64,000 nt of DNA, from the NCBI RefSeq assembly GCF_009857885.1, contig NZ_WWER01000007.1, positions 248,001-312,000 of the forward strand, given 5' to 3'. Of this stretch, positions 44,430 through 51,149 are shown piece by piece (position 1 is the first letter of the stretch; each line of letters begins with the position of its first letter). The stretch comes from Pusillimonas sp. TS35. Its GTDB lineage: Bacteria; Pseudomonadota; Gammaproteobacteria; Burkholderiales; Burkholderiaceae_B. A program made the translations under genes and the position numbers. Under the pieces are notes generated by a model. The model worked only from the letters and a program-made list of their open reading frames with translations. It had not been told where the DNA came from and did no database searches.

Positions 44430-45410
44430 ATGAAACTCATACGAAAAATGCTTTTTGTATCGCTGGCCGCACTGGCCATGACGACGGGCCCCGCCGCCAT
44501 GGCACAGGAGGCCAAGTGGCCGTCCCGAGCCATGAACATGATCGTGCCCTTCCCGCCCGGCGGGCCCACAGACCTAATCGCTCGCGTGCTGGCAAAACAT
44601 CTCGGCGATCAGTTAGGGCAGCCCATCGTTGTTGAAAACAAGGCTGGCGCCAACGCCACCATCGGCATGGCCGCCGCCGCTAAAGCCAACGCCGATGGCT
44701 ATACATTGTTGTACAACACCTCATCGATCGCTCTGGCGCCTGCGCTATACAAACAACTTTCATTTGATCCACTGAAAGATTTCGACGCGGTGTCTTCCAC
44801 GGCCGTCATCCCGATGGTGCTGCTAACGCACCCATCCGTTCCGGCCAGCACTGTGCAAGAGTTCGTTGCCTATGCCCGCAAGCATGCTCAACAGCTTTCC
44901 TACGGCTCGGCGGGTGCCGGCAACATCACCCACTTGGGCGCATTTCTCTTCAATCAAACTACAGGCATCGATGCCACGCACATCCCCTATCGCGGCAGCG
45001 CCCCCGCACTGACTGATCTGGTCGGCGGACAAGTCCAGTTCATGGCCAACACCTTGAACGACTCGCTGCCCTTCATCAAAGAAAAACGCGTCAAGGCATT
45101 GGCCATCACCAGTATCGCCCGCAACCCCGCCGTACCCGACGTCCCGACCATCGCCGAAACCGTGATCCCCGGCTTTGAAATGGGTGCGTGGCAAGGCATT
45201 ATGGTCCCCGCCGGCACACCCACCGCCATCGTGACACGGCTGAACAGCGAAATCCGCAAGGCGCTGCAAACCGATACAGTACGCGCACAGCTGAAGCTCC
45301 AAGGCGCCGAACCCCTGGGCGCAACGCCCCAGGAGTATCAACAGTACATCGTCGCCGAAACCAAACGGCTCGGCGACGTGATCGCATCCGCAGGGGTCAA
45401 GCTCAATTGA
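44430..45410 (+). CDS. Bug-type (TctC-like) periplasmic substrate-binding receptor
   Basis: A 326-residue exported receptor with a signal peptide ending AMA (about 25). It has the classical MIVPFPPGGPTDLIARVLAKHL, VVENKAGANATIGMAAAA, HIPYRGSAPALTDLVGGQVQFM and VKALAITSIARNPAVPDVPT motifs. AAGGAG precedes the start. It follows the MaoC-like gene by 55 bases, so the likely cargo is the acid that the CoA-transferase activates. Confidence 0.93.
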   Translation: MKLIRKMLFVSLAALAMTTGPAAMAQEAKWPSRAMNMIVPFPPGGPTDLIARVLAKHLGDQLGQPIVVENKAGANATIGMAAAAKANADGYTLLYNTSSIALAPALYKQLSFDPLKDFDAVSSTAVIPMVLLTHPSVPASTVQEFVAYARKHAQQLSYGSAGAGNITHLGAFLFNQTTGIDATHIPYRGSAPALTDLVGGQVQFMANTLNDSLPFIKEKRVKALAITSIARNPAVPDVPTIAETVIPGFEMGAWQGIMVPAGTPTAIVTRLNSEIRKALQTDTVRAQLKLQGAEPLGATPQEYQQYIVAETKRLGDVIASAGVKLN

Positions 45411-46786: not shown

Positions 46787-47758
46787 TTACTTGCGCGAAT
46801 CGCTCGACGACGAGACGCCCAGCCCCTCGCCGGATTTGTGCCGCACCACATAAAGCGGGCGATGCTTGACCTCACCGAATATGCGGGCAATGTACTCACC
46901 CACCACGCCTACCGAAAGCAGGCTCACGCCCTCGAAGAACAAAATGAGTGTAATCAATGTCGCCCAACCCTGCACCGGATCACCATACAACCAATGTGCC
47001 AACACGATATATAAACCATAGGTGAACGACAGCAGGGCCAAGCACAGGCCAACCAGGCTCAGCAGGCGCAAGGGCCAGGTTGTGAACGCCGTGAGCCCTT
47101 CCATCGCAAGACGAAACAGCTTCAGTGCCTTGAAATGCGACTGACCGTGCAGGCGCTCAGGGGGCGAATAATACATAGGCTCCGAACGGAAGCCGACCCA
47201 TGCAAAAAGGCCCTTCATGAAACGCGTGCGCTCAGGAAGCGCCATCAAGGCGTCTACCACGACGCGATCCATCAGGCGAAAATCGCCAGCGTTCTCGGGC
47301 ACGTGCAAGCCGTCCGATGTACGCAGCATGTGGTAGAACAAGCGGGTGCCTAGCCGTTTGAAGATTGTTTCATCGGCCCTCGATGCGCGCACCGCATACA
47401 CCATCTCGACGCCCTGAGACCAACGTTCGACCATGGCGGGGATTAAGGCGGGAGGGTGCTGAAAATCGGCATCCATAAGCACCACGACTTGGCCTTGCGC
47501 GGCCTCCAGGCCCGCACTGATCGCAGCCTCTTTACCAAAATTGCGGGAAAGCTGAATACAGACGACTTCGGGTTGGCGGCTCGCCCATTCGGCCAGCACG
47601 GCATGCGTTGCATCGGTACTGCCGTCGTCGACAACAATGATTTCAAAGCGGGGCGCGAGCGTACCCAGCAATGCGACCAGTTCCGGCAACAGAACCCTCA
47701 GACTTGCCGCTTCATTGAGGCACGGAATAACGCAACTGATTGACGATGGCTGCTGCAT
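46787..47758 (-). CDS. GT2 glycosyltransferase (ArnC/GtrB-like)
   Basis: A 323-residue enzyme with an N-terminal GT-A domain (SCVIPCLNEAASLRVLLPEL, VVDDGSTDAT, LSRNFGKEAAISAGLEAA, DxD in VLMDADFQHPP) and two C-terminal transmembrane helices (about 235-255 and 270-295), the layout of polyprenyl-phosphate sugar transferases. It would load a sugar on undecaprenyl phosphate at the inner leaflet. Neighbouring GtrA and deacetylase genes fit use of an aminosugar for lipid A or another envelope glycan. Confidence 0.92.
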   Translation of the reverse strand: MQQPSSISCVIPCLNEAASLRVLLPELVALLGTLAPRFEIIVVDDGSTDATHAVLAEWASRQPEVVCIQLSRNFGKEAAISAGLEAAQGQVVVLMDADFQHPPALIPAMVERWSQGVEMVYAVRASRADETIFKRLGTRLFYHMLRTSDGLHVPENAGDFRLMDRVVVDALMALPERTRFMKGLFAWVGFRSEPMYYSPPERLHGQSHFKALKLFRLAMEGLTAFTTWPLRLLSLVGLCLALLSFTYGLYIVLAHWLYGDPVQGWATLITLILFFEGVSLLSVGVVGEYIARIFGEVKHRPLYVVRHKSGEGLGVSSSSDSRK

Positions 47759-47990: not shown

Positions 47991-49187
47991 ATGAGCCTCA
48001 ACGTCCCACCCCTGCTTTCGCTACTGGCGGCCATCGCTATGCTGCTGATCGGTACCATCGTCAATCGCAAGGTACCGTTTCTTTCGCGCTACAACATCCC
48101 GGATCCGATCACTGGCGGCTTAATCTTCGCCATAGCGGCCGCAATCGCCTTGGCGTCCGCGGATTTCCAGATCTCGTTCGAGCAATCCATCAAACCGGTT
48201 CTTCTGCTGATGTTTTTCAGCGGCGTGGGCCTGTGTGCGGATCTTCGCCAGCTCAAGCGCGGCGGCAAGGCGCTGCTGATTTTCCTGCTCGTGCTGCTGC
48301 CCTTTATCGTGGTTCAGAATCTGGTCGGCGTGGGTGTGGCGAAGCTGCTCGATCTGCACCCCATCTTCGGGCTGGTGGCTGGCTCTATCACCCTGGTGGG
48401 CGGCCATGGCACCGGCGCCGCGTATGCCGACCGCTTTGCCGAGATCAACAACCTGCAGATGGTCATGGACCTGACCATGACCGTCGCCACCATAGGCCTG
48501 ATCATCGGCGGCCTTATCGGGGGCCCCGTGGCGCAGTACCTGATCAACCGCCATAAGCTTCGATCAACGGCCGAGCAGGCCTCCGATACGCACGAATATC
48601 ACGAAACGGCCGCTCCCATCAGCACCACCGGCGCCCTGGGGGCGTTGGCGGGTATTTTCACCGCAGTCATCATCGGCCAGTGGCTGGCCGAGCGCTACTC
48701 CGGTGGCGCGGTGACCATACCCGCCTTTCTCTGGTGCATGCTGATCGGGATCGCGATCCGCAATCTGCTGCCTTTCACAGGCATGCGCTTCGACGACCGG
48801 GCCTCAGACCTGATCGCCAATGTCTGCCTGTCGCTGTTTCTCGTGATGACAATGATGACGCTGAACCTGGTCGAGGTTGCGCTGTCTGCCGGCCCCTTCC
48901 TGGTCATCATCGCGGCCCAGGTCGTGGCGATCGTCCTGTATGTTGTCTTCGTCTGCTTCCGTTTCATGGGGCGCGATTATGAAGCCGCAGTCACGTCGGC
49001 GGCGTTTATCGGCTTCAATATGGGATCCACCGCCACGGCCATGGCCAACATGCAAGCCATCGTGGCCAAGCATGGGCCGGCGCCCACCAGTTATCTCATC
49101 GCACCGCTAGCCGGCGCTTTTTTCGTGGACATCATGAATGCGTTTGTGTTGACCGGCCTGCTGGCACTGCCATTCATCGGAGGCTGA
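47991..49187 (+). CDS. gltS: Sodium/glutamate symporter GltS
   Basis: A 398-residue inner-membrane carrier with two inverted sets of about five helices. Family features include TIVNRKVPFLSRYNIPDPITGGL near the start and GHGTGAAYADRFAE at about 138-151; the second half has GFNMGSTATAMANM at about 341-354, the paired glycine-rich reentrant loops of GltS. It imports L-glutamate with sodium. No clear Shine-Dalgarno precedes the ATG. The next gene starts two bases after its stop, an unusual pairing described separately. Confidence 0.93.
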   Translation: MSLNVPPLLSLLAAIAMLLIGTIVNRKVPFLSRYNIPDPITGGLIFAIAAAIALASADFQISFEQSIKPVLLLMFFSGVGLCADLRQLKRGGKALLIFLLVLLPFIVVQNLVGVGVAKLLDLHPIFGLVAGSITLVGGHGTGAAYADRFAEINNLQMVMDLTMTVATIGLIIGGLIGGPVAQYLINRHKLRSTAEQASDTHEYHETAAPISTTGALGALAGIFTAVIIGQWLAERYSGGAVTIPAFLWCMLIGIAIRNLLPFTGMRFDDRASDLIANVCLSLFLVMTMMTLNLVEVALSAGPFLVIIAAQVVAIVLYVVFVCFRFMGRDYEAAVTSAAFIGFNMGSTATAMANMQAIVAKHGPAPTSYLIAPLAGAFFVDIMNAFVLTGLLALPFIGG

Positions 49188-49189
49188 AG

Positions 49190-50725
49190 ATGCGCGCCCT
49201 GCTTGCCAGCCTGATTCTCATTTTTCTTGCCGCCTGCGGCGGCGGCCCCGACGTGCAAGCATTGCGCACAGGCGTAGACACGCGCCTGGAGCATGCCTTG
49301 CCCGCCGGCGTGCTTGATCTAACGAGCCTCATCCGGCGCGGTTCGCAACGCGATACACGCGCACCCGCCGGGGAAAACCGCCGTATTGTGTACTTCGACG
49401 CAGAGCTCAAATTGCTGCGCGACATCGATTTTGGCGCCTGGAATGCACTCGGTATCGCCGGGCTGGTATCGGCGCTAGGCGCTGGCCCAAAAGGTATTGA
49501 GGGCATTAGAGCGGGCGGCAACAAAGCCGGCGACGTCATCCGCGCCCACGGCACCGCACTATACCGCGAAGAAAACAACACCTGGACACTGATCGTACCG
49601 GCGGGTTATCAGCCGCCCATCGCGCCGGGCGTAGCAACCGGCTATACAGAGCGCACCAATGCCTTGCTGGCCGCACTGCGCCGCGCAGTCGAATCATTTC
49701 CGCGGGACACCTCACCAGAGCAGCATGCCGCAATCGAAGAAGAACTCGCTGCCGCACAAGCAAGTATACGGGCCCGCCTGGCAAGGGTTTCAGACGGCTA
49801 CGCCATTGCCGCCGGCGCGGAGCATGGGCAGTACCTGCGCGTCGCACAAGCGCTGTTCGGAGAAAAGGGATCGCGCGCGGTTCCGCTGATCACACGCGGC
49901 GGCGAAGAAAACCTGAGGCTGCTGCGCTCTGGAAAAGTACCCATCGCACTTGCTCAGGGCGACGCGGCCCTGGATGCGTACCAGGGCACCGGGGTGTTCA
50001 AAGACCAGGGGCCACAGGTCGCCTTGCGCGGCATTGCCAGCCTGTACCCAGAGCCCATGCACATCCTGGTGCGCGCTGAAAGCAGCCTGAAGAAAGTGGC
50101 GGATCTGCGCGGCAAGCGCGTCGCCATCGGAGAAACAGGCGCCGCCTCGCGCACGACGGCGCTGCGTGTATTGGCCGCCCACGGGCTGGAACCGAAAGAC
50201 ATCATTGCAGAAGCGCTGACCATAGGTGGCGCCCTGCAGGCACTACAGAACAACCAGACCGATGCTGTCATGCAAGTCATCGGCACACCGGCCGACGCCA
50301 TCCGCGAAGCACAAACTGACATGCCCCTGCGCATGCTGCCGCTTTCAGAAACGGCCATCCACACACTGGTCGGCGCGCGACAGGGTTACTTTCCCTACAC
50401 CGTGGCACGCGGCACCTACCCTGGGCAGAACGATGATGTGCACACCATCGCCACCGCTGCTCTACTGCTCACCGATACGGCATTCTCCGATGCGGAAATC
50501 ACCGCCCTGACCCAAAACATTTTCGCCCCTGGGCGCGACTACTCTGCCCTGGGCAGCACACAGGGCGCGCAAATATCGGTCTCCACCAGCCGCATCGGCA
50601 TGTCTGTGCCCATGCACGCGGCAGCTGCCCGGGCGCTGGACGGCTTGGCAGGCGAAGCATCTGCGGCACAAAACGTGGAACCGCCCGGGCAGATCAAGCA
50701 GGACGGTGCGGCGCGCGCACAGTAG
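49190..50725 (+). CDS. TAXI-family (TRAP-type) substrate-binding lipoprotein with N-terminal extension
   Basis: A 511-residue lipoprotein (lipobox FLAACG, Cys about 16). The C-terminal 320 residues match TAXI receptors: VSDGYAIAAGAEHGQYLRVAQAL, LLRSGKVPIALAQGDAALDAYQG, LRGKRVAIGETGAASRTTALRVLAAHGL and TIGGALQALQNNQTDAVMQV. The preceding 170 residues contain a long extension (including DIDFGAWNALGIAGLVSALG) not usual in TAXI proteins. TAXI receptors normally serve fused TRAP permeases, yet none is here; the gene is coupled to gltS by GGAGG (49180-49184) inside the gltS end. A known Vibrio TAXI protein binds glutamate. Confidence 0.87.
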   Translation: MRALLASLILIFLAACGGGPDVQALRTGVDTRLEHALPAGVLDLTSLIRRGSQRDTRAPAGENRRIVYFDAELKLLRDIDFGAWNALGIAGLVSALGAGPKGIEGIRAGGNKAGDVIRAHGTALYREENNTWTLIVPAGYQPPIAPGVATGYTERTNALLAALRRAVESFPRDTSPEQHAAIEEELAAAQASIRARLARVSDGYAIAAGAEHGQYLRVAQALFGEKGSRAVPLITRGGEENLRLLRSGKVPIALAQGDAALDAYQGTGVFKDQGPQVALRGIASLYPEPMHILVRAESSLKKVADLRGKRVAIGETGAASRTTALRVLAAHGLEPKDIIAEALTIGGALQALQNNQTDAVMQVIGTPADAIREAQTDMPLRMLPLSETAIHTLVGARQGYFPYTVARGTYPGQNDDVHTIATAALLLTDTAFSDAEITALTQNIFAPGRDYSALGSTQGAQISVSTSRIGMSVPMHAAAARALDGLAGEASAAQNVEPPGQIKQDGAARAQ

Positions 50726-50741
50726 GCCGCACCGCTATGTC

Positions 50742-50996
50742 TTAACGCTTGGACTTTCCGTACCGATGTCCGCGATCGCCCTTGTTCGTATGCTCGATCG
50801 TCTTGCGGTCAGCGGCTCGCTCACGGCCTTTGAACCGATCAGTGGCGTTTGGGCCGTTGGTATTAAAGAGCCCTTGCTGGCTGATAGAGCTACCAGACTT
50901 GCCGCCCGGATGCCCGTTTCCTTGTTTAGCGTGCGCGACCGAACCGGCCCCCAACGCGATCGACGCAACCATAACCGCTAGTAATTTACTTGCCAT
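50742..50996 (-). CDS. Small exported protein, conserved hypothetical
   Basis: An 84-residue protein with a signal peptide (MASKLLAVMVASIALGAGSVAHA). The mature part is Gly/Lys/Arg-rich: KQGNGHPGGKSGSS, then FNTNGPNATDRFKGRERAADRKT and a basic tail. I have the impression of similar small Burkholderiales proteins but know no function. The start is the ATG at 50996, with GGAG upstream at fair spacing; an in-frame extension upstream would bury the signal sequence. It converges with the TAXI gene across 16 bases. Confidence 0.75.
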   Translation of the reverse strand: MASKLLAVMVASIALGAGSVAHAKQGNGHPGGKSGSSISQQGLFNTNGPNATDRFKGRERAADRKTIEHTNKGDRGHRYGKSKR

Positions 50997-51149
50997 GCTT
51001 AATAGCTCCAAAAAATAGCGGGCGCCAGCACCAACAGAAGAGGCGCGCACCCGCCCTACATTGTCATGGTGGCCACAGCATTTGCCGTGAACCACTTCGA
51101 TACAATCATTGAGTTGCATGTAACCAGGCTGTAATGGCCGAGTGGGCTT

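Follow-up and report, generated by a model that had tools for sequence, protein, structure and literature searches.

A gene for a Na+/glutamate symporter, GltS, and a gene for a substrate-binding lipoprotein of the TAXI family lie side by side in a 64,000-nucleotide stretch of the Pusillimonas sp. TS35 genome (contig NZ_WWER01000007.1, positions 248,001 to 312,000; hereafter the window), and the locus raises the question of whether the lipoprotein is a receptor that delivers glutamate to the adjacent carrier. An earlier note, made from the DNA sequence alone, had proposed that a membrane-anchored receptor hands glutamate to a GltS-type carrier and that this would be a new transport architecture. 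The first part remains the most likely interpretation and agrees with most of the evidence, but it had already been described: the TAXI-GltS pair BP0402/BP0403 of Bordetella pertussis was published in August 2025 (Commun Biol) as a new class of secondary transporter that depends on a receptor (PMC12344293), and the claim to novelty falls. From sequence comparisons and structure models, we conclude that the window probably encodes a two-gene, receptor-assisted secondary L-glutamate importer orthologous to the TAXI-GltS of B. pertussis, a reading to which we give a probability of about 0.8. The window locus is a non-Bordetella example of a published architecture and not a new principle.

The gene pair and its junction are arranged as follows:

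47991-49187, forward strand: gltS, Na+/glutamate symporter (ESS family), 398 residues (TIGR00210, PF03616, AlphaFold 2 model, and Foldseek)
49179-49183, forward strand: GGAGG, serving the TAXI gene as ribosome-binding site and lying within the final codons of gltS (ATC GGA GGC TGA)
49190-50725, forward strand: elongated TAXI receptor lipoprotein, 511 residues, apparent BP0403 ortholog (TIGR02122, alignment A1 of 30 receptors, and AlphaFold 2 model)

As the earlier note had it, the two genes are 2 nt apart, with the ribosome-binding site of the second lying within the first, and the pair is apparently translationally coupled. The carrier passes the NCBIfam gltS model TIGR00210 (385.2 bits; cut-off, 310.75) and matches PF03616 at 370 bits; the receptor passes the TRAP_TAXI model TIGR02122 over residues 225-483 (204.3 bits; cut-off, 84.35), and this match leaves the large N-terminal extension (about 200 residues) that had also been pointed out. 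The nearest large, gene-like open reading frames on either side (46787-47758 and 50742-51119) are both on the opposite strand, so gltS and the TAXI gene look like a two-gene unit. A scan for promoters and terminators gave nothing convincing, and the sole forward-strand promoter-like site 5' of gltS has 9/12 matches.

The AlphaFold 2 model of the receptor has a predicted local distance difference test score (pLDDT) of 83.2 and a predicted template modelling score (pTM) of 0.80. Its best Foldseek matches are the glutamate-binding TAXI-type structures 8u79, 8s4j, 9ibo, and 1us4, with TM-scores by target of 0.81-0.83 for 8u79, 8s4j, and 1us4. The parts of the protein are:

49190-49237, forward strand: lipoprotein signal peptide with lipobox LAAC and, by motif, lipidated Cys16 (C16 is invariant in 30/30 receptors)
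49238-49615, forward strand: N-terminal alpha/beta domain, residues 17-142 (alignment of 30 receptors and AlphaFold 2 model)
49649-49789, forward strand: helical (dimerisation) domain formed by helices 154-168 and 176-200 (residues 161-200 have a pLDDT of about 55-64)
49799-50671, forward strand: TAXI substrate-binding domain with Tyr215 and Gln256 (alignment and Foldseek)

BP0403 is likewise a lipoprotein made up of N-terminal, helical, and TAXI domains, and it is coupled to gltS; it binds L-glutamate with a Kd of 180 nM and is dimeric through its helical domain, substitution L201R giving a monomer and Q263A weakening glutamate binding 250-fold (PMC12344293). Leu197, Tyr215, and Gln256 of the window receptor correspond to the published residues L201, Y219, and Q263, respectively, and in alignment A1 the equivalents of Y219 and L201 are kept in 30/30 receptors and that of Q263 in 26/30. 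With the same three domains and these three residues kept, the window receptor looks like an ortholog of BP0403. The published numbering was carried over through locus L050, chosen because its signal peptide equals that quoted for BP0403 and its L, Y, and Q fall at the published positions; its reading frame, counted from the ATG chosen here, has 501 residues; the quoted peptide is two residues longer at the N-terminus, which brings the length to the published 503, and with this two-residue offset the three residues are at 201, 219, and 263.

These features suggest how the system might work. The lipoprotein would be anchored by Cys16 and would dimerise through its helical domain, and the C-terminal Venus-flytrap domain would catch the ligand, presumably glutamate. 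The receptor would then dock on the periplasmic side of dimeric GltS, and GltS, as a CitS-like elevator carrier, would receive the glutamate and import it, probably together with Na+. In the published AlphaFold 3 model, the receptor N-terminal domain lies on the GltS transport domain, and the binding domain lies over the scaffold-transport interface (PMC12344293). This model agrees with the earlier note's suggestion that the N-terminal extension might contact GltS.

Is the pairing more than a peculiarity of this strain? The elongated receptor is present in 31 of 121 genomes of the family, and gltS is directly upstream on the same strand at 30/30 testable loci, the 31st (G094) ending at a contig end. 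Outside the family, six loci encode an elongated receptor, and all six have gltS directly upstream. The pair is thus not limited to a few strains, and the total of 36/36 testable loci, in six families by our survey codes and at least two orders, rules out chance adjacency or an annotation artefact, a possibility that we regard as negligible. Presence counts throughout the genome survey are lower bounds, to be read as at least the number given, since in places a capped number of candidates was scored in each genome. Co-occurrence among the 121 family genomes is strict in one direction: 31 have both genes, 26 have gltS over the cut-off alone, and none has the elongated TAXI gene alone (Fisher p 1.8e-13, with related genomes treated as independent). 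A GltS match is present in 58 of these genomes, 57 of them over the cut-off, including all 31 with the receptor. Within the same genus, both genes are present in three of five genomes, and the other two lack both gltS and the elongated receptor.

The close junction is also widespread, with a gap of -4 to +3 nt at 26 of 29 junctions (exceptions are loci L049, L051, and L054) that were scripted by picking start codons near the gltS stop (L055 was left out), and the junctions of relatives resemble that of the window. A profile of the N-terminal and helical part (A2) matches 4/398 phylum genomes and 5/250 order genomes, the Pusillimonas genome being counted in both, and in all eight matched genomes this region adjoins both a TAXI domain and gltS. 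Across the phylum sample, 65/398 genomes have a GltS match, and of the 65 matches above 100 bits (PF03616 matches below 100 bits were left out) four are beside an elongated receptor. L088, a weak GltS-like match that has no hit with the window GltS, is excluded from all counts. At locus L039 (G055:C24), gltS is in two pieces in different frames and the receptor frame is open, reflecting either a frameshift or an assembly error. We also considered whether the paired GltS is plasmid-borne and rejected this; 499 plasmid records match GltS, all at less than 60% identity, with 60 of them among the matches listed.

The usual partners of TAXI proteins are fused TRAP permeases, and an alternative is that the receptor works with a TRAP permease whose gene is elsewhere in the genome. 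The earlier observation that no TRAP permease is nearby holds for the entire window, which contains none of the genome's 17 matches to TRAP_fused (TIGR02123) or 21 matches to DctM (PF06808). In the host genome (4.1 Mb), three TAXI genes exceed the cut-off, GltS has a single match, which is that of the window, and two TRAP_fused permeases over the cut-off might supply such a partner; both permeases are on another contig, however, and each adjoins a TAXI gene of its own. A 659-residue reading frame (contig C11, 142946-144736) with two DctM pieces and no TRAP_fused match adds some weight to this alternative, its sequence making a further TRAP permease type possible, or else another carrier. The relatives carry more weight in this argument, as five of the 31 receptor genomes (G007, G048, G078, G101, and G039) have no matches to either DctM PF06808 or TRAP_fused TIGR02123 at E 0.001. 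These genomes keep the gene pair at a size of about 0.8-0.9 Mb and are 93-99% complete, and five more receptor genomes are without a TRAP_fused match over the cut-off. A TRAP partner encoded elsewhere, which the earlier note had named as a finding that would count against its proposal, is therefore excluded as a general requirement, and we consider it very improbable that the window receptor serves one.

Further support for a carrier that works with its receptor comes from the ancestry of the two genes. In a tree of 61 family GltS proteins, the 29 paired ones form one side of a branch with support 98/95, and in a tree of 127 GltS from the family, order, and phylum samples, a branch with support 98/88 splits 35 paired from 92 unpaired proteins; nine end branches in the larger tree are long, two of them paired. 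For the 35 pairs, the GltS and receptor trees share 22 of 32 splits with no conflict between splits at support of at least 95, and their tree distances correlate with r 0.969 (permuted maximum, 0.392). A single clade of the family's pairs is rejected in both trees (approximately unbiased test, p 1.1e-6 and 1.4e-9, with two long rows included). In both gene trees, loci L103 and L106 (other families) cluster with the window type and not with the Bordetella type; for L104 and L105 (another order), only the receptor tree shows this grouping (87/87). Such clustering of pairs from outside the family points to transfer of both genes together, and judging from the trees they seem to move, or to undergo duplication and loss, as one unit. 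In two genomes, a second, stand-alone GltS of another clade is present beside the receptor-paired one (L084 in G073 and L085 in G016). Left out of the GltS trees were L009-L011 (same genomes as L026, L028, and L032), L014, L024, and L089-L094 (all duplicates), L053 (cut by a contig end), and L039 (gltS split between two frames; also out of the pair trees); L169, a 309-residue fragment, was left out of the large tree.

The paired GltS clade can also be recognised by its residues. Six positions are occupied by the same residue in at least 90% of paired and at most 20% of unpaired proteins (D121, H123, Y145, N154, Q156, and G397), and the first five constitute a signature:

48351-48458 (codons 121-156), forward strand: signature D121, H123, Y145, N154, Q156 of receptor-paired GltS (35 paired vs. 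92 unpaired)

All five are found together in 33/35 paired and 0/92 unpaired proteins, the exceptions (L107 and L108) differing at one position each. Having five of six paired-specific positions within 36 residues is unexpected both for random positions (p 0.0013) and for random conserved positions (p 0.0057), values that apply to a region not preset; 11 unpaired clades of comparable depth, some of them nested, have only 0-3 such positions in residues 115-160, of 3-24 each. The AlphaFold 2 model of GltS (pLDDT 82.5) has as its best Foldseek match CitS, a citrate carrier of the elevator type (5a1s; TM-score by query, 0.66), and its first re-entrant hairpin is formed by helices 124-136 and 140-153, with GGHG at 137-140. 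D121 and H123 lie in the loop that precedes this hairpin, Y145 lies within the second of its helices, and N154 and Q156 lie where the chain turns into the following helix. E. coli GltS has its N-terminus outside. In the window GltS, basic residues are found in loops 26-33, 86-93, and 187-191, which would be inside by the positive-inside rule, and the base of the first hairpin would thus be outside, facing the periplasm. We infer that residues 121-156, corresponding to re-entrant hairpin 1, are a candidate site of receptor docking or gating.

Could gltS and the receptor gene nonetheless be operon partners without physical hand-over, GltS transporting alone and the lipoprotein being a periplasmic glutamate sensor or buffer? 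Strict co-occurrence and co-inheritance, the retention of both genes in genomes of about 0.8 Mb, and the paired-specific cluster of GltS residues all argue for a closer association, as do the natural TAXI-GltS fusions in Lachnospiraceae (PMC12344293). Several points weigh against a hand-over in the window system, and the first two favour the operon-partner alternative directly. First, there is no TAXI reading frame near any of 93 other GltS loci (61 phylum and 32 family), and most GltS proteins are apparently receptor-free; the GltS family as such needs none. These flanks, mostly 3-4 kb a side, were searched with our own profile at E 1e-10, and in seven of the 93 (L060, L062, L078, L086, L145, L159, and L169) the flank is shorter than 2.5 kb on one side. 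Second, the anchor of the receptor is without an inner-membrane retention Asp. According to the +2 rule of E. coli, a lipoprotein with no Asp after the lipidated Cys is favoured for export to the outer membrane. Asp directly follows the lipidated Cys in none of the 30 receptors (window positions 49235-49243 and their equivalents), and 21 of 30 have Arg at position +3. If the E. coli rule applies, the outer membrane is favoured, a location that would be unsuited to direct docking on an inner-membrane carrier, and we note that PMC12344293 assumes inner-membrane anchoring. Third, functional coupling of receptor and GltS still needs experimental proof, according to PMC12344293, with glutamate binding and the dimer measured for BP0403 only and the window protein known from sequence and models. 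Fourth, the GltS model has a pLDDT of 58-63 for residues 131-160, in the signature region, and the clade-specific residues may stem from ancestry alone. Taking both sides together, we regard operon partnership without hand-over as unlikely, and the receptor-assisted importer remains our preferred reading. Short-TAXI pairs, reported for other organisms in PMC12344293, were not encountered among the 93 unpaired GltS loci sampled. In the open-access literature without preprints, we found no later report of receptor-dependent uptake, and among the matches listed no title or abstract other than that of PMC12344293 contains both TAXI and GltS.

The four receptors that depart from the conserved glutamate site are themselves informative. 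Loci L038, L040, L041, and L046 have P in place of Q263 (window Q256), and these receptors are from 0.8-Mb genomes of one genus, with a locus G+C content of 0.29-0.35; L048, from a fifth reduced genome in another genus, keeps Q263. The size of about 0.8 Mb and the low G+C content match the description of Ca. Kinetoplastibacterium in PMC5632650 (endosymbionts of trypanosomatids, in the Alcaligenaceae, about 0.8 Mb, G+C 30-33%), and the four genomes are thus probably those of this trypanosomatid endosymbiont. A possible explanation for the substitution is that a lower receptor affinity might suit a glutamate-rich host cytoplasm. Our search of the open-access literature (without preprints) found no report on Kinetoplastibacterium with TAXI; passages of PMC3846528 do not mention GltS or a symporter, and the text of PMC12344293 does not mention endosymbionts or Kinetoplastibacterium. 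Of the present results, the GltS signature and the endosymbiont variant are absent from the text of PMC12344293.

A broader interpretation, which we offer tentatively and with the odds against it, is that receptor-paired GltS proteins are a separate subfamily, gated by the receptor, that arose once among the sampled Pseudomonadota. Their hallmark, D121-H123-Y145-N154-Q156, would be a docking or gating site missing from stand-alone GltS and would predict the need for a receptor, and the Q-to-P change in the symbionts would retune the receptor for a glutamate-rich host. If this were true, the signature alone would tell which GltS proteins need a receptor. The survey itself indicates that the two genes are inherited together, persist through extreme reduction of the genome where no TRAP permease is present, and set their GltS proteins apart as a clade, and the residue signature narrows the questions of receptor need and docking site to a few point mutations.

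Prior to the 2025 TAXI-GltS report, the only known receptor-assisted secondary carriers were the TRAP and TTT transporters (PMC12344293). Like TTT systems (TctABC), the window pair would be a secondary carrier using a periplasmic receptor (PMC12344293), but TctABC uses another receptor family (TctC/Bug) and another permease. A gene for a TctC/Bug-type TTT receptor is present elsewhere in the window (44430-45410). With conventional TAXI-TRAP receptors (VcGluP, 8s4j), the window receptor shares a homologous C-terminal domain (phmmer E 1.1e-32 to 8s4j), but it has an extra N-terminal part of about 200 residues and adjoins GltS instead of a fused TRAP permease; because no such permease is adjacent, we do not file the locus as a TAXI-TRAP system. 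The carrier belongs to the same family as stand-alone GltS (ESS family, TC 2.A.27) and has the same CitS-like predicted fold, whereas paired GltS proteins constitute their own clade with the signature D121-H123-Y145-N154-Q156. The closest resemblance is to the TAXI-GltS of B. pertussis, with which the window system shares a three-domain lipoprotein, gltS directly upstream, the conserved Y219, Q263, and L201, and an operon without a TRAP permease. It differs in that the window proteins are 40% (receptor) and 52% (GltS) identical to those of L050, and in having a 2-nt gap between the genes where a 3-bp overlap is reported for the B. pertussis pair.

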